Source: a virus. Taken from it: a stretch of 20,606 nucleotides of DNA. The notes under the pieces were generated by a model. That model was not told the DNA's origin. It was given only the letters and a program-made list of their open reading frames with translations, and did not search any database. The stretch spans positions 1-20,606 of the IMG/VR virus record IMGVR_UViG_3300042543_000853; one strand, 5' to 3'. Positions 1-17,092 of this stretch are shown one piece after another (positions within the stretch are counted from its first letter, which is position 1; each line of letters opens with the position of its first letter). The position numbers were made by a program, and so were the translations under genes.

Positions 1-1047
1 ATGAACGCCCCCGCACCCCGGTTGATCCAACCCACGCCGCATCCGGTAGATGGTGCGGAGACCAATCTGCGCCCGCCGAAACTCGCGGAATTTGTCGGCC
101 AGCGGGAGCTGAAAGACAATCTGGAGGTGTTTCTGCAAGCCGCCAAACGGCGCGGGCAGGCGCTCGACCATGTGTTGTTTCACGGCCCGCCGGGGCTGGG
201 CAAAACCACCCTCGCCCATATCATCGCGCAGGAGATGGGGGTGAATGTGCGTATTACCGCGGGTCCGATGCTTACCAAGGCGGGGGATCTGGCGGCGATC
301 CTCACCAATTTGCAGGCGAGCGATGTACTGTTTATCGACGAAATCCACCGCCTGCCAACCACGGTAGAGGAGGTGCTCTATTCGGCGATGGAGGATTTCA
401 AGCTTGATCTGGTGATCGGCGAAGGCCCGGCAGCACGTTCCATCCGCATCGACGTACCGCGCTTTACGCTGGTGGGGGCGACGACGCGGCTGGGGCTGCT
501 CTCCAACCCCTTGCGCGACCGGTTCGGGATTCCGCTGCGCTTGCGTTTTTATGACGCCGATGAGCTGGAGCAGGTGGTCACCCGTGGCGCAAAGCTGCTC
601 GGCATGGCGATCCATAAGGACGGTGCGCAGGAAATCGCCACCCGCTCACGCGGCACACCGCGCATCGCCCTGCGACTGCTGCGCCGGGTGCATGATTTTG
701 CCTGCGTGGCCAATAAACAGGAGATAGACCAGCCGATTGCGCAGTATGCGCTCACCAAACTGGAAGTAGACGCGCGGGGACTCGATAGCGCCGATATGCG
801 CTACCTTACGGTGCTCGCCGAGCATTATCAGGGCGGTCCTGCGGGGATTGAAACCCTCGCCGCCGCACTCTCCGAGCAGCGCGACGTGCTGGAGGAAACG
901 ATCGAACCCTATCTGCTGCAAATCGGGTTGCTGCAACGTACGCCCCGCGGACGGATGCTCACCGCGCAGGGCTACATGCATCTGGGCCTGCCTGCTCCGA
1001 AGCAGGCGGTGAGCGGCGGCCAGATGGATTGGGTGGAGGGGGGCTGA
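1..1047 (+). CDS. ruvB: Holliday junction branch migration ATPase RuvB
   Basis: RuvB is the hexameric AAA+ motor that, with RuvA, drives branch migration of Holliday junctions so that RuvC can resolve them in the cytoplasm. The 348-residue product has the full family layout: Walker [10 protein letters not shown] at residues 62-70, Walker B LFIDEIH at about 110-116, sensor 1 GATTR at about 159-163, the arginine-finger region LRDRFG at 171-176, and the C-terminal winged-helix DNA-binding domain ending with [10 protein letters not shown]. Length matches the usual 330-350 residues. The [15 protein letters not shown] and GIPLRLRF stretches resemble alphaproteobacterial RuvB. The ATG lies on the first base of the window, so its ribosome binding site cannot be checked. 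In many Alphaproteobacteria ruvB is followed by the tol-pal genes; here a prophage follows instead. Confidence 0.97.
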
Positions 1048-9843: not shown

Positions 9844-11469
9844 CTATAAAAGACGCGATCCGCGACGCATGGATTCGGCAAGGGCGGCGGCAACCTGCCC
9901 CTGCGACCGGCGAAAGCTGTTGATGTCCGGCGTGCTGATATTCACCTGCACGCTCACGGGGCGGCTCATCTGGTGATTGGGTACTACCATGCCGCCTGCG
10001 CGAGGCATGATCATTTCTGGCCCACGTTCGCCGACCATGATGGGCTTTCCCCCCATGAAATTCCCGCCCTCGGCAAAGAATCCGCCAAAGACGCTGCTGA
10101 TGCCACTCACAATACTGCCAAAGTCCAGACTTCCACCGCCAGATGCAAACATCCGGTTGGTCACCATGTCGATGCTCTTATCCAGAAACGAGCCGGAAAT
10201 GCGGCTAAACACGTTGCGCACGACCCCTTCCAGATCCGTAAAATCCTTGGCAACACCCTTCAGCGCGTCGGAAAAAATGTCCTTGATGTCGATGGCCGTT
10301 TCTTCGGCCTGGGTTTTGATCTGGGTCAGCGCGGGCAAGGGTTTGTCTTTAGAGGTGCTTCCCACATTTCCCACGGCCTTGCCAATGGCTGCATACTGCT
10401 TCGTGGCAGATGGAATGGATCCCTGTATGCCCTTCCACAAGGAGGCGGTAGTTTTAAGCTGCGTGTTGTATTGCTTTTGTGCTTCTGGCAACTGGTACGT
10501 TGCCACCGTGACATCTCTCAGCAAATTGGCCTGTTCTTGCATTTGTTTGGCGTTTTTCCGGTACCCTGCTGATAATTTGTCCGCTCCAACGGCATCTGCA
10601 ATATCAGCCAGTGCCGCCTTACCATCGGCAATCAGTCCTACCATATCGCCAAATCGGCGTATGATCCACGCCACCACCTCATCAAACATGCGACGTAGCC
10701 CCAATAAGGCAACGCTGGTCGTATTAATGGCAAACAACAGAATTTCCGTAAAGGCATCTGCCAATACCTCAATGGCTGGCGCTACGAACGCCACAATGTT
10801 TTGACCCAGTCCTTTCAGCGCAAGCTCCAGCCTGCCCAGGGCGTCCATCATGCCACCGATCGCTTGCCCCTCTGTTTGTGTCAGTGTCACACCAAGCCGA
10901 TCGGCTTCATCGCGCATTTTTCGCATACCTTCGCTGTCCAGTTCCATCACTTGCAGCATTTCCGCGCCGGACTTACCCATCAGGGTCATAGCAATATTCA
11001 CTTGTTCCGCTGGGTTCTGCACCCCTTGGATAGCATCGGCGATCACCTCAAATTGCTGGTCAATGGCCAGATTTTTAAATGTCGCGGCATCAATTCCGAG
11101 GGCATTCAGCGCGTCGCGTGCTGCTCCCTGTCCCTGCGCAGCCTCCACCGAGTTCTTGGCAAGCTGTTGGAGGGATCTGGCAATCGATTCGGTTTCCACG
11201 CCTACTTCCGATGCTATCAACTGATAGGATGAGAGCACTTCGGTGCTGATGTCCAACCGATTAGAGAGATCGTTGATCCTGTCGGATGCCTCTGCAATAT
11301 TTTTAAGAGCAGCAAGCGAAAATGCACCGGCAATCAGTCCAGGCATACCTCCAAGCACACGAGTTAGGCCACCAAACGCCGATTTCAGGCCACCGATTTT
11401 ATTGCGCACCGCTTCAAAGGCGCGCCCCGTTTTGTCGTGTGCCGAAATGATAAAGTCGAGACCTGACAT
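9844..11469 (-). CDS. Tail tape measure protein
   Basis: About 541 residues, largely alpha-helical, with the traits of tape measure proteins: an N-terminal FIISAHDKTGRAFEAVRNKIGGL block, a glycine/alanine-rich hydrophobic stretch (about 33-56), a long helical middle, hydrophobic segments near 225-260 that could enter the host membrane, and the characteristic C-terminal GGNFMGGKPIMVGERGPEM followed by a proline/glycine turn. It sets tail length and occupies the tube lumen until ejection. The gene follows the frameshifted chaperone product directly: the -1 frame TGA overlaps this ATG (TGATG), with GGGAGG just upstream. An in-frame GTG one codon earlier is less well placed. It has lambda H position. 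Confidence 0.92.
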   Translation of the reverse strand: MSGLDFIISAHDKTGRAFEAVRNKIGGLKSAFGGLTRVLGGMPGLIAGAFSLAALKNIAEASDRINDLSNRLDISTEVLSSYQLIASEVGVETESIARSLQQLAKNSVEAAQGQGAARDALNALGIDAATFKNLAIDQQFEVIADAIQGVQNPAEQVNIAMTLMGKSGAEMLQVMELDSEGMRKMRDEADRLGVTLTQTEGQAIGGMMDALGRLELALKGLGQNIVAFVAPAIEVLADAFTEILLFAINTTSVALLGLRRMFDEVVAWIIRRFGDMVGLIADGKAALADIADAVGADKLSAGYRKNAKQMQEQANLLRDVTVATYQLPEAQKQYNTQLKTTASLWKGIQGSIPSATKQYAAIGKAVGNVGSTSKDKPLPALTQIKTQAEETAIDIKDIFSDALKGVAKDFTDLEGVVRNVFSRISGSFLDKSIDMVTNRMFASGGGSLDFGSIVSGISSVFGGFFAEGGNFMGGKPIMVGERGPEMIMPRAGGMVVPNHQMSRPVSVQVNISTPDINSFRRSQGQVAAALAESMRRGSRLL

Positions 11470-11974
11470 CACCCCTCCCGTTTTTGCCGTTTTTCAGCCA
11501 GCACCTTGTAATACGCAGCCCACCCGGCAAATTCATCGACCGTCATGCATAAAACTTCTGGGACCCGGATTCCCAAACGCTCAGCGAGCGCGTACACCAT
11601 GAGCAAATCCGGATCCTCCCTCAGTTTTTTTCGGCGTCTTCCACCAACTCTGCATCGGATGCCCCGACGAGCTGCTTGGCGATCCGTGCCAGTATGTCTG
11701 CATCCACAGACCGCATCAGATCGGGTTTGTCTTCTCGCGTGAAATGTGGGTTTCCGTCCTTGTCCTTGGCCTTCATGATGATCATGTCTGCGGTCATTTC
11801 CAGCGGGTTTGCTTGCCCACGGTTGAGTTTCATGCGCTCTTGCAACGTCAAGGGCGTGGCATAGATGAGGAATGACTCTCCCTCCTCATCCCATTCGGGG
11901 ACAGGGATCACCTGTGGATCATCCGTCAATTGCTTAAAATGGGCTTTCGCCCGATCAATGGCCTTTGTGGACAT
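11469..11974 (-). CDS. Tail assembly chaperone G-T fusion by -1 ribosomal frameshift
   Basis: A slip at A-AAA-AAC (11624-11630), immediately before the zero-frame TGA, moves ribosomes to the -1 frame. That frame stays open for 51 more codons, from CTG at 11624 to TGA at 11469-11471. The extension begins LREDPDLLMVYALAERLGI and continues with VPEVLCMTVDEFAGWAAYY, a helical pattern like that of lambda T-type extensions (GI-P-V--MT--EF). The fused product would have about 168 residues. In lambda, G and G-T bind tape measure and tube subunits in a fixed ratio. GGGAGG downstream of the slip could instead support separate initiation of the T part at TTG 11606 or ATG 11600, so the mechanism is inferred although the coding content is strong. 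Confidence 0.78.
11621..11974 (-). CDS. Tail assembly chaperone, G-type zero-frame product
   Basis: A 117-residue soluble, mostly helical protein encoded between tail tube and tape measure, where tail assembly chaperones lie. It has FLIYATPLTLQERMKLNRG in the middle, a charged KAKDKDGNPHFTREDKPDLM segment and an acidic end (VEDAEKN). The start is supported by GAGG seven bases upstream. Its last codons form the slippery run described for the G-T product, so the same gene gives a short and a long form. I see no enzyme motif. The G-like role comes from position, size and the frameshift. Confidence 0.85.
   Translation of the reverse strand: MSTKAIDRAKAHFKQLTDDPQVIPVPEWDEEGESFLIYATPLTLQERMKLNRGQANPLEMTADMIIMKAKDKDGNPHFTREDKPDLMRSVDADILARIAKQLVGASDAELVEDAEKN
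11624..11630 (-). promoter_or_regulatory. Slippery heptamer A-AAA-AAC for -1 frameshifting
   Basis: On the minus strand the zero-frame codons are GAA AAA AAC TGA, so the heptamer A AAA AAC has exactly the X-XXY-YYZ phase needed for a tandem -1 slip, and seven A residues in a row precede the C. The palindromic segment ATCCGGAT follows about ten bases beyond the stop and could give a weak stimulatory structure. The adjacent GGGAGG is downstream, not upstream where a stimulatory Shine-Dalgarno would normally be. Confidence 0.75.
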
Positions 11975-12003: not shown

Positions 12004-12414
12004 CTACACGGTGCTTTGTGTCAGGGCACCGGTGCCTTTGAAGGTGAACGAGGCCTCCACCAAACCATCCAGTTGGGCTTTACGCGTGACGTTTGTCACC
12101 AGCGCCGTGCCGGAGAAAAACACGTCTCCTGTATCCGCTCCCTCTGGGTAAACCTTTAGCGAGATGCTTGACCCGGCATCCAGTGTTTCCTGCCCATTGG
12201 TGTCGGTTTCATCCCACAGGCAAGTGAGCGAGCCTTCCCAACCCTTGAGTGTTGGTTCAAAGGTTCGCCATCCTCCATTGCTCTGTGCCGTGTTGATGGA
12301 GGTGCTATCCGCCACCTCGCCGGTGGTCTCAATCTGCCACTCTTTCACCTCTGCCACGGTGGCCGGGGTGCCGCCCACCTTCACAATCCCTTCTTTACCA
12401 GTATGCGTTGCCAT
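12004..12414 (-). CDS. Major tail tube protein (lambda V position)
   Basis: A 136-residue protein of the tail tube type. It starts MATHTGKEGIVKVG, has the A-V-E-V-K-E-W-QIETTGEVADSTSI block seen in tube subunits (a strand pair followed by 'D-TSI-T'), then WEGSLTCLWDETDTNGQ, and ends with a second strand-rich part (GTALVTNVTRKAQLDGLVEASFTFKGTG). Such subunits stack as hexameric rings to form the DNA channel. AAGGAG lies seven bases before the ATG. The gene stands between the tail terminator and the chaperones, as in lambda and RcGTA. I cannot say which of several tube families it belongs to without a profile search. Confidence 0.88.
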   Translation of the reverse strand: MATHTGKEGIVKVGGTPATVAEVKEWQIETTGEVADSTSINTAQSNGGWRTFEPTLKGWEGSLTCLWDETDTNGQETLDAGSSISLKVYPEGADTGDVFFSGTALVTNVTRKAQLDGLVEASFTFKGTGALTQSTV

Positions 12415-12428
12415 TTTCTTGCTCCTTC

Positions 12429-12872
12429 CTAGCCTAGCGTTTCTGGATCATTCTCCAGTGTGTGGTATTTCGCCGCAAAACTCATGGAAACCACTGCAAC
12501 CGGCATTTCCCCATCGCCAACCAGTTTGATTTCCGTGTCACTCAGGAAAATATCCCGCACCAGACCATTCAGGGAGGGGTTATTATAGAGTGCCGTTTCC
12601 ACCTCCACGGCGATCCGATCCAGCCGATCATCATAACCGGTGGTCATCTTCACATATCCTTCCACCATCACCGTCAGCACGCGCTCAAAACGGCGTGGTG
12701 GATGCATGGTGACGGGAACGCTTGATTCGCTGCGTGTAAACACCAGCAGACAGGGCAACTCGGCATCGGTAATGGGGTGCACGCGGGATGCAAACACATG
12801 CTTTTTGGTGGTGGTCAGGCCAGTGACCGCAGCAAGCACGGCATCGCGGATCTGGTCTCTAGCATGTGCCAT
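12429..12872 (-). CDS. Tail terminator protein, lambda U-like
   Basis: A 147-residue protein that resembles lambda U by pattern: an N-terminal helix DQIRDAVLAAV, a strand-turn with FASRVHPITDAELPCLLVFTRSE (compare FFDGRP..FDEADFPAVAVYLT in lambda U), a central YDDRLDRIAVEVETALYNNPSLNGLV helix, and a final beta strand VVSMSFAAKYHT. U-type proteins cap the growing tail tube and dock it to the head. The start is supported by GGAGG six bases upstream. It overlaps the preceding FII-like gene by 14 bases. No lambda Z equivalent is seen between FII and U. Confidence 0.82.
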   Translation of the reverse strand: MAHARDQIRDAVLAAVTGLTTTKKHVFASRVHPITDAELPCLLVFTRSESSVPVTMHPPRRFERVLTVMVEGYVKMTTGYDDRLDRIAVEVETALYNNPSLNGLVRDIFLSDTEIKLVGDGEMPVAVVSMSFAAKYHTLENDPETLG

Positions 12873-13653: not shown

Positions 13654-15594
13654 TTAAACGCTGGTGCGAGCGAAGGATTCAGGATGCCGAACCGCGCAAT
13701 CCACATCTTGGAATGCGGTGATACGCACCCCGCCACTGGTATCCTTGGCGTATGGGTTCACCAGCAGGTCAAGGATGCCCCATTCACCGATAATCAAATC
13801 CTCCCAATTCCCGAAGATGATCTCATCGGCGGCAAGCTGGTTACTGGCAAAGGCAAAATAACCATTTACCTCTCCCACACCCGGTTGGCCTGCAACGTTT
13901 GTCCACACCCGGATCCCCGTACTGGTGGCAGCCTCCGTTTGCTTCATTTTCCCACGATCCGTCGCAGAGGCAAGATAGGCAAGGGTGCCAAGGTCTGCAT
14001 TGTCGATGGCCACCTCCGTTTCCAGATCCACCATCTTGGCGAAGGTGGGGGTACCGGTGGTAATGGTGACGCTGCCGATGCCGGTGGTATTCAGAATCCC
14101 CATTGGTTCGCCGCCAAACCCAGAGCCTTTGAGGGCTGCTTTATCGATAGCAAGCGCCAGCACCTTGGCAAGATCGTCCCGCACGAAATTCTCCACATCC
14201 AAGGAGGATTGCATCATCATCCGGCGCGTGATTTCGGTATAGGCCGCCACCGTTTTGGGGATAAGGCTTACCTGTCCAATCGATTGCTGGGATTCGGTAG
14301 CATCCCCCCCCTCGTTAAGCCAGTAAGCGGTTGCTCCGCCGGTCTGTTTAGGGATGGCAAGGTTTCCCTCCAATCCCGTGAGGACGCGTGCTCCCATCTG
14401 CTTCACCAACAGGCGGTTGCGTAGCAGCTCAATGAAACTTGCCGGTTGCAGTTCATTGGCCACCGTATATCCACCCGCCGTGGAGGTGGTAACATTCAGA
14501 TCCCGTTTTGCCATGTTGCCACGCGCACCAGAAACAAGCACGTCCGTGGGAATCTGAATATTGCCCTGGAACTTGCGTTGCTTGAATTTGTTGGAAACGG
14601 CTTCCGACACTTCCCGTTCAAAGGCGGCGTCGTCCCATGTGCGTTTATTGGATGGATCGGCCATCGCTCGCAACGCACGGAGGATACTGTATCGGCGCAC
14701 CTCGTTATCGTTCAGCCCAAGAGGGCCATTTGCCGCAGCGGTATCCACGGCTGGCGTCGCGCCGATGCCGTCCAGTACCAGAGTGCGGAATTCATCGACG
14801 GACTTGCCGCTTCCGATAAATTCCTGCGCTTTGTCCTGAAAGTTATGGCGAATACCGAGCGCCTGAATTTCCCGGATGCGGGTCAGTTCGTTTTTCTGGG
14901 TTTCGGCGCGTACTTTGTCAGGGTCAACAATAATGGCGGGCGGTGCAGGGTTTGCGTTGGCCGCGCCGGTTTGAGCAGGTTCCATAGTGCGTTTCTCCAA
15001 TGATTGAGGGGTTGTTTTGATGGGGGATTGGTCGCTCTGCTCGCCCTCCGACCTTCCGATTCCAACGGTTTGGTCGGCTGGGATAGACACAAGCGAGATT
15101 TCAAGAGGCTTCCACTTCATCACCCGATACGTCACGGATGCGTCGGTTTCTTCCTCAAGGATGACGTGATCGATGCTATACCCCACCGAAATACAGGTGC
15201 GGATGCCATCCACCACGTCCTGGAAATAAGCATCGGCTTGCACACCTTTCCCAAAGCGCACAACCGCACGGCCAACGCGGTCTTTGCCTATTTCCGCTGA
15301 CTCCACCACCCCGATCTGGCTGGTGGGATCATGATCCGCAAGCAGCGGGGCACGACCGGAGACAACCCAGCCCATGTCCACGCTGTCTTTCCCATGGTCG
15401 AGGATCTCGATCATGTATCCCCGATCCACGGGGGTTTCGCTGCTAAACGCCAGTTCCGCCGTGCGCTTTTCCGCGTCGATCTTGCCAATATCGGCAGCGC
15501 GAAACAAAAACCCACGCACCGCACTACCAGACTTGGCGGCGATGCGGAAATCTTCAACGGTCGCAATCCGATCAGGCTTGTGATTGATCTGCAT
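13654..15594 (-). CDS. HK97-type prohead protease / major capsid protein fusion
   Basis: One 646-residue polypeptide holding both prohead protease and capsid subunit. Using the chosen start, residues about 15-185 are an S78-like protease with LLADHDPTSQIG (likely catalytic His near 88), TCISVGYSI (likely Ser near 136) and the LEISLVSIPAD strand. Residues about 195-350 are a helical, charged, scaffold-like delta region. Residues about 355-646 are the HK97-fold capsid: STAGGYTVANELQPASFIELLRNR, then GGDATES, and GSGFGGEPMGILN at about 491-503. The protease should release itself and the delta region after shell assembly. The start at 15594 has GGAGG nine bases upstream; an ATG at 15612 is in frame but less well placed. 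The gene overlaps the portal gene by 23 bases. Most HK97-like phages keep these as separate genes, although fused forms are known. Confidence 0.92.
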   Translation of the reverse strand: MQINHKPDRIATVEDFRIAAKSGSAVRGFLFRAADIGKIDAEKRTAELAFSSETPVDRGYMIEILDHGKDSVDMGWVVSGRAPLLADHDPTSQIGVVESAEIGKDRVGRAVVRFGKGVQADAYFQDVVDGIRTCISVGYSIDHVILEEETDASVTYRVMKWKPLEISLVSIPADQTVGIGRSEGEQSDQSPIKTTPQSLEKRTMEPAQTGAANANPAPPAIIVDPDKVRAETQKNELTRIREIQALGIRHNFQDKAQEFIGSGKSVDEFRTLVLDGIGATPAVDTAAANGPLGLNDNEVRRYSILRALRAMADPSNKRTWDDAAFEREVSEAVSNKFKQRKFQGNIQIPTDVLVSGARGNMAKRDLNVTTSTAGGYTVANELQPASFIELLRNRLLVKQMGARVLTGLEGNLAIPKQTGGATAYWLNEGGDATESQQSIGQVSLIPKTVAAYTEITRRMMMQSSLDVENFVRDDLAKVLALAIDKAALKGSGFGGEPMGILNTTGIGSVTITTGTPTFAKMVDLETEVAIDNADLGTLAYLASATDRGKMKQTEAATSTGIRVWTNVAGQPGVGEVNGYFAFASNQLAADEIIFGNWEDLIIGEWGILDLLVNPYAKDTSGGVRITAFQDVDCAVRHPESFARTSV

Positions 15595-17092
15595 TTGCTT
15601 GTGCCTCCGCATCCAGAATCATTTGCATTCCCTTGACGTCTGGGGCACCCAACGTCACCCCGTACTTTTCTCGCAGTTTCTGCTCGTGTGCGAGCTGAGC
15701 GTAGACCTCCTCGATGTCCATCCCCAGTTCGCTGGCCACATCCTGTGCGCTCATCAGCCCCGCATTGATGGCCTCGACGTAAGCCTTCATTTCCTTCAGC
15801 GGATCCACCCAACGCCAGCCGCGAGGCCGCCATATCGGTGCATTAAACTTCTCAAACTTGGATAGCGGGAGTGGTATTTTTTGCGTGGTGAGGCCCATCA
15901 AGAGCCAGCTTTCAAACACATCATCGCACAGATGCTCAATGAGCCATGTTTGCAGCCGCTTCCAGTGTTCTCGCTCCTCCAGCGCAAAGTGGCGAAGCGA
16001 GGAAAAGTTGACCCCTTCACCATCATTTCCGAGCGTGTTGTAGCTGACGCTCAGCCCAGACGCCGCGCCGCGCAGCATGGCCTTGATGAAAAAAGCAAAG
16101 GAGGTGGTGGGGTGCTGCGGATCCCAGGATTCAAACTTCACCCCTGCGGGTAATTGCTCAAACAGGCCCGGCTCTGCTTCGGTGAGCAGGTTTCCGTCTT
16201 CGTCTTTATCGGTGCCCGTGTAGCCCTGGCCATCCTCAGACGTGAAAAACCCCATTTTGCTGGCGGCGACACCTGCGGCCACCAGCTCATTTTCTTCATA
16301 GACGCCCAGCATCTTGAGACGGCGCATGGCGGAGAACATCCACGGCACGCCACGCGACTGCGAAACGCGCTCGGAGGTATACAGGTGGATGACCTGTTCC
16401 GCTGGGATGCGTTCATAGTGCGTTCGGTTGGTGGCAGAGGCAAAACTGTCTCCGGGGTGTTTTGTCAACACATGGTAGGCAACGGGGCGGTTCCATTTGT
16501 TAAACTCAATGCCCATACGTATTTTATGGCCGTTTTGCAGGGTATCATTGTAATTCTCATCGACATGGTCGCCCTCAATCAATTGCAGGGCGAATGCGAA
16601 GGGATTTCCAGCCTCTTTGCCTCTGATCTTACGAACAAATACCTCCCCATCCTTGGCAACGGTTTCGACAATCAGTTGTTTGACGTCGATCCATGACAGG
16701 CGACCATCCACTGTGCAGTGCTTCTTGCGCCCCCACTCCTTCCATTGTGCTTCGATCACCCGATTGGCGCGATCGTCATAGACCACACCATCCGGCCCAT
16801 CACGCTCCACGGCGCGCACCTGCACCCGAATCCCTTCCGAACCGACCACATTGGTGCGGCACAGGCTTAGGAATCGCTTAGCGTAATCATTATCGGCGGC
16901 AAGCTGGCGCGACCGGGCGCGGATACGGGTGAGTGTCAGACGCACCACAGAATCCATTGAATTACTGATCCCCGTCCAGCCTGCGGTCAGTCGATCCGCC
17001 TTTGCCGCTGCAAAGCTATTGCGCTGTACGATCTTCCGCACAGGTTGCACAGGTTGGACGGCTGGGCGCTTACGGGTAAAAAACCGGATCAT
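15572..17092 (-). CDS. Portal protein, lambda B family
   Basis: A 506-residue protein of the lambda portal family (lambda B has 533 residues). It shows the usual N-terminal arginine-rich segment, NDYAKRFLSLCRTNVVGSEGIRV near 68-90, a W-K-E-W region, DGEVFVRK, LQLIEGDHVDE near 170, then HLYTSERVSQSRGVPWMFSAMRRLKMLGVYEENELVAA and the ASGLSVSYNTLGNDGEGVNFSSLRH stretch. The dodecameric portal forms the DNA entry vertex, docks terminase, and later binds gpW- and FII-like proteins. The ATG overlaps the stop of the gpW-like gene as ATGA, with GAGG about eleven bases upstream. The C-terminal MSAQDVASELGMDIEEVYAQLAHEQKL helix is typical of the family. Confidence 0.95.
   Translation of the reverse strand: MIRFFTRKRPAVQPVQPVRKIVQRNSFAAAKADRLTAGWTGISNSMDSVVRLTLTRIRARSRQLAADNDYAKRFLSLCRTNVVGSEGIRVQVRAVERDGPDGVVYDDRANRVIEAQWKEWGRKKHCTVDGRLSWIDVKQLIVETVAKDGEVFVRKIRGKEAGNPFAFALQLIEGDHVDENYNDTLQNGHKIRMGIEFNKWNRPVAYHVLTKHPGDSFASATNRTHYERIPAEQVIHLYTSERVSQSRGVPWMFSAMRRLKMLGVYEENELVAAGVAASKMGFFTSEDGQGYTGTDKDEDGNLLTEAEPGLFEQLPAGVKFESWDPQHPTTSFAFFIKAMLRGAASGLSVSYNTLGNDGEGVNFSSLRHFALEEREHWKRLQTWLIEHLCDDVFESWLLMGLTTQKIPLPLSKFEKFNAPIWRPRGWRWVDPLKEMKAYVEAINAGLMSAQDVASELGMDIEEVYAQLAHEQKLREKYGVTLGAPDVKGMQMILDAEAQANADQSQA

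Follow-up and report, generated by a model that had tools for sequence, protein, structure and literature searches.

The window analysed here is the whole of a 20.6-kb IMG/VR virus record, and the locus of interest lies on its minus strand together with a lambda-type terminase, a lambda-type portal, a fused protease-capsid ORF and a distal tail module. The tail genes follow the order tail terminator, tail tube, G, T and tape measure, which places G after the tail tube gene and ahead of the tape measure gene (Table 1). In the capsid region, a single ORF of 652 codons (window 13654-15612) fuses a prohead protease (Peptidase_S78) to the major capsid protein. Towards its C terminus, the tape measure protein has a match to the tape model of the RcGTA-type gene transfer agent with an E of 5e-15, under the model's cut-off. 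The left end of the window (1-1047, plus strand) is occupied by a complete-looking RuvB gene. This gene is probably host DNA, and the record is therefore likely to be a trimmed prophage.

Table 1. Features of the tail chaperone locus and its neighbours in the window
Feature	Position	Strand	Matches
Tail terminator protein	12429..12872	-	Phage_tail_U (weak), phrog_4204
Tail tube protein, upstream of G	12004..12414	-	Phage_tail_2, phrog_1407
G-type tail assembly chaperone, zero-frame gene, 117 aa	11621..11974	-	phrog_344, phrog_16513, PDB 2ob9
Slippery heptamer A_AAA_AAC adjoining the zero-frame TGA (11623-11621)	11624..11630	-	
T-type domain, -1 frame extension, 51 codons + TGA, read only after the slip	11469..11624	-	
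7-nt spacer from heptamer to hairpin, including the zero-frame TGA	11617..11623	-	
Predicted stimulatory hairpin, 5' arm GGATCCGGATTT	11605..11616	-	
Predicted stimulatory hairpin, 3' arm GAATCCGGGTCC	11561..11572	-	
SD-like GGAGG (11619-11615) and TTG (11606-11604), possible independent T start, for the most part within the hairpin, without conservation among relatives	11604..11619	-	
Tail tape measure protein, ATG overlaps the T stop by one base	9844..11469	-	phrog_9483 and others

Slip Site and the -1 Frame

The zero frame of G opens at ATG 11974, closes at TGA 11623-11621 and has GCC GAA AAA AAC TGA as its last codons. Starting from C11624, the -1 frame remains open for 51 codons (LREDPDLLMVYALAERLGIRVPEVLCMTVDEFAGWAAYYKVLAEKRQKREG) and is closed by TGA 11471-11469, whose A is also the first base of the tape measure ATG at 11469. 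A sequence-only reading of this DNA had proposed an A-AAA-AAC heptamer in the phase of a -1 slip at the end of the gene, followed by a 51-codon extension up to a TGA overlapping the tape measure start. The coordinates of both were reproduced on the minus strand, the heptamer (11630-11624) directly adjoining the TGA, and the two potential start codons named in that reading, TTG 11606 and ATG 11600, likewise sit where it had placed them. In-phase heptamers of the X_XXY_YYZ type are rare in the genes of the window, with 20 found in 6334 codons (0.3%), and just one of these 20 is A_AAA_AAC.

Identity and Fold of G and T

The G product matches the PHROG tail assembly chaperone families phrog_344 and phrog_16513, and the match of the G+T fusion to phrog_16513 spans nearly its whole length. 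The AlphaFold model of G has a pLDDT of 87, and its top match in the PDB turned out to be the tail assembly chaperone of HK97 (2ob9), with a Foldseek probability of 1.00, a TM of 0.53-0.58 and an E of 8.5e-3, yet a sequence identity of 15-18%. The alignments used for structure modelling drew on the window and IMG/VR rows only. As modelled, G has the fold of a tail assembly chaperone. At the level of family models, the Pfam entry Phage_TAC_13 (PF16459) gave 16.5 bits for G vs. a gathering score of 28.8, so the threshold was not reached; the same entry matches 6 of 52 relatives at E up to 0.01. No Pfam or NCBIfam model names either G or T. A single-protein search with G in viral_contigs returned zero matches, and no plasmid relatives were found.

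The T extension is predicted by AlphaFold to form three helices (pLDDT 94). Its model has no convincing match in the PDB, and its sequence has none in Pfam at E 0.01 or in NCBIfam at E 0.1, which counts against the frameshift reading. The PHROG tail chaperone family 25875 matches at E 0.0035. The extension had earlier been described as T-type, and profile searches bear this out. A T profile built only from relatives, with the window left out, scores the window extension at 76 bits. The T profile also aligns with the first ~40 residues read after the slip site of lambda itself, and lambda T scores 23.0 against it, above all 500 nulls (300 unrelated ORFs and 200 shuffles; the best reached 18.5). 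The hhalign probability for lambda T vs. T is 25-50%. These profile comparisons make it likely that the extension is homologous to lambda T.

Conservation among Relatives

The arrangement was compared across phage and IMG/VR records in 68 different G genes, counting that of the window, that are followed by a recognisable T domain. In 66 of them T is encoded in the -1 frame, and 54 of these 66 have an X_XXY_YYZ heptamer adjoining the zero-frame stop: A_AAA_AAC in 37, G_GGA_AAC in 11, A_AAA_AAT in five and A_AAA_AAG in one. Most of the remaining -1 relatives have the heptamer three bases off. In one relative (L024) it is found 24 nt upstream of the zero-frame stop, because that stop is located further on. 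Six relatives (L005, L008, L107, L108, L111 and L114) have a -1 frame that becomes open no more than 7 nt ahead of the zero-frame stop, leaving the heptamer as the only place for the shift. Furthermore, the pN/pS of the -1 frame ranges from 0.33 to 0.52 over ten pairwise comparisons. Judged by these comparisons, the extension is a real coding sequence that is under protein-level selection and has homologues in the relatives.

A few contigs have a different junction. L038, L039 and L040 have T in the +1 frame, behind a stretch of nine A's (A9) close to where G stops (e.g., L040:17485-17851 and downstream). Where the others use -1, these would need a +1/-2 shift or slippage during transcription, unless the A9 stretch contains an assembly error; the three contigs have the same sequence at the junction and different sample numbers. 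In L139 (1501-1680) the reading frame of G is broken shortly before the gene ends, though a GGGAAAC-TAA junction comes after; this break is an indel or an assembly error.

A Predicted Hairpin beside the Slip Site

The RNA of the window can form a 12-bp stem (11616-11605 with 11572-11561) that begins 7 nt past the heptamer, a feature absent from the sequence-only reading. Its folding was compared with controls in which the amino acids were kept and the codons were resampled by local usage. Over 66 sequences the folding energy is below the control, with a mean z of -1.67; 28 sequences are below -2, and the window has -2.06. The nine positions used as controls, which lie in G, T and the tape measure gene, have mean z values of -0.62 to 0.01. 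A helix starting 5-9 nt past the heptamer reaches p<=0.05 in 34 of the 66 sequences with ~3 expected, the sequences being related rather than independent; in this test the window helix has p=0.015. The hairpin is not universal, as it is not significant in some relatives (such as L002, L003 and L005).

The stem appears to be maintained through base changes. In the window and five close relatives, both sides have changed in three of eight pairs, and in L057 and L141 a stem pair went from C-G to G-C, a compensatory replacement. In 24 other relatives the same 5' arm region finds its partner in a 3' arm that lies nearer, with changes on both sides in five of nine pairs; this set was chosen partly for the hairpin, which biases the percentage paired and affects the double changes less. 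The position of the 3' arm thus differs between the two groups. Many studied sites of the hairpin-stimulated type have a spacer of 5-9 nt (PMC5009743), and the features typical of dnaX-type -1 sites are also seen here, namely a stable hairpin on the 3' side of the heptamer, at a distance of 5-9 nt, and base changes that compensate each other across the stem. The predicted hairpin is probably the frameshift stimulator.

For the group as a whole, we consider it an even bet that a hairpin embedded in the T coding sequence determines the G-T ratio. In this reading the 5' arm (~GATCC, the Asp-Pro codons) would have stayed in place, and the 3' arm would have moved between the LADR and the R-I/V-P codons with the structure kept. 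A limited literature search found no description of a covarying hairpin at the G-T sites of these phages. The hairpin with its 3' arm moved between groups is an only mildly new element.

Proposed Origin of the -1 Frame Product

The T domain might instead be a separate protein made without any frameshift, from its own start at TTG 11606 (or ATG 11600) behind the GGAGG at 11619-11615. The window does contain GGAGG, 8 nt and TTG in succession, and one relative (L010) has GGAGG with an ATG. However, L002, L003 and L004 have no start codon in the first ~20 codons of the -1 frame, there is no start common to the relatives, and the constant place of the heptamer in the -1 phase would be left unexplained. 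In addition, the SD-like run overlaps the codons of an E-D-P motif, and the TTG bases are paired in the hairpin, which thus also buries the very codon suited to such a start. The six codons before TTG 11606 cannot on their own separate frameshifting from independent initiation, since Leu1 is mostly forced by the C of the heptamer and the first two bases of the stop codon, and the Asp-Pro codons double as stem sequence. Exclusive independent initiation was set aside on account of the non-conserved start codons and seems very improbable to us. It is possible that some free T is made from the GGAGG/TTG start besides the G-T fusion.

Slippage of RNA polymerase on the run of seven consecutive A's could also yield a -1 mRNA that ribosomes would read without slipping, and there is a precedent in bacteria, where runs of nine A's or T's cause transcriptional slippage (PMC5009743). 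Close relatives (L047, L065 and L014), however, carry G_GGA_AAC at the same place, without a long homopolymer, and the site resembles ribosomal shift sites in its phase and in having a hairpin 5-9 nt away. Transcriptional slippage was set aside because of the G_GGA_AAC relatives, and we regard it as extremely improbable.

The explanation we hold with near certainty is that a -1 ribosomal frameshift, programmed as in lambda G/G-T, yields a G-T fusion. One point counting against it is that in E. coli the A_AAA_AAC heptamer slips less readily than A_AAA_AAG (PMC5009743); the host here may differ. Most ribosomes would read the 117 codons of G and stop at TGA 11623. A minority would move one base back with the tRNAs on AAA and AAC, aided by the hairpin starting 7 nt downstream, and would add 51 codons to give a G-T fusion of 168 residues. 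By analogy with lambda, the tape measure protein would be coated by many copies of G and a few of G-T, with the T domain bringing tail tube subunits to it. The earlier proposal of a programmed frameshift thus finds its slip site, G-like and T-like identities and gene order all in place; the slip itself, its frequency and the chaperone function are what we infer.

Comparison with Known Systems

As in lambda, the locus is flanked by the tail tube and tape measure genes and has its -1 phase where G ends; the first ~40 residues of lambda T align with the window extension directly after the slip. The two differ in the heptamer (G_GGA_AAG in lambda vs. A_AAA_AAC in the window) and in the length of T (a frame of 144 residues in lambda vs. 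51), and the window G is not recognisably similar in sequence to lambda G, a profile comparison giving no significant similarity. The comparison with lambda covers gene position, phase, heptamer and protein sequence; the window has in addition the predicted downstream hairpin. Similarly, the Rhodobacter phages RcRhea and RcCronus (Cronusvirus) have a homologous G (30% identity) and T with a stop-adjoining heptamer, G_GGA_AAC vs. A_AAA_AAC in the window, and their records already annotate the tail assembly chaperone as a joined CDS. The closest isolated relatives are the Pelagibacter phages HTVC026P, HTVC202P and HTVC111P and the Roseobacter phages CRP-811 and CRP-821, which have the same A_AAA_AAC or an A_AAA_AAG site and a -1 T domain. 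The deposited Pelagibacter and Roseobacter phage genomes (L002-L005 and L008) give the short G product only, and the -1 T extension was missed.

The programmed frameshift of lambda G/G-T is already known, and the window is a further ordinary example of it. In general, the G-T frameshift appears to persist in dozens of phages, most of them uncultured, and also in Pelagibacter and Roseobacter phages whose records give the short product alone. These phages provide comparative material on a hairpin stimulator and on a minimal T domain of 51 residues.
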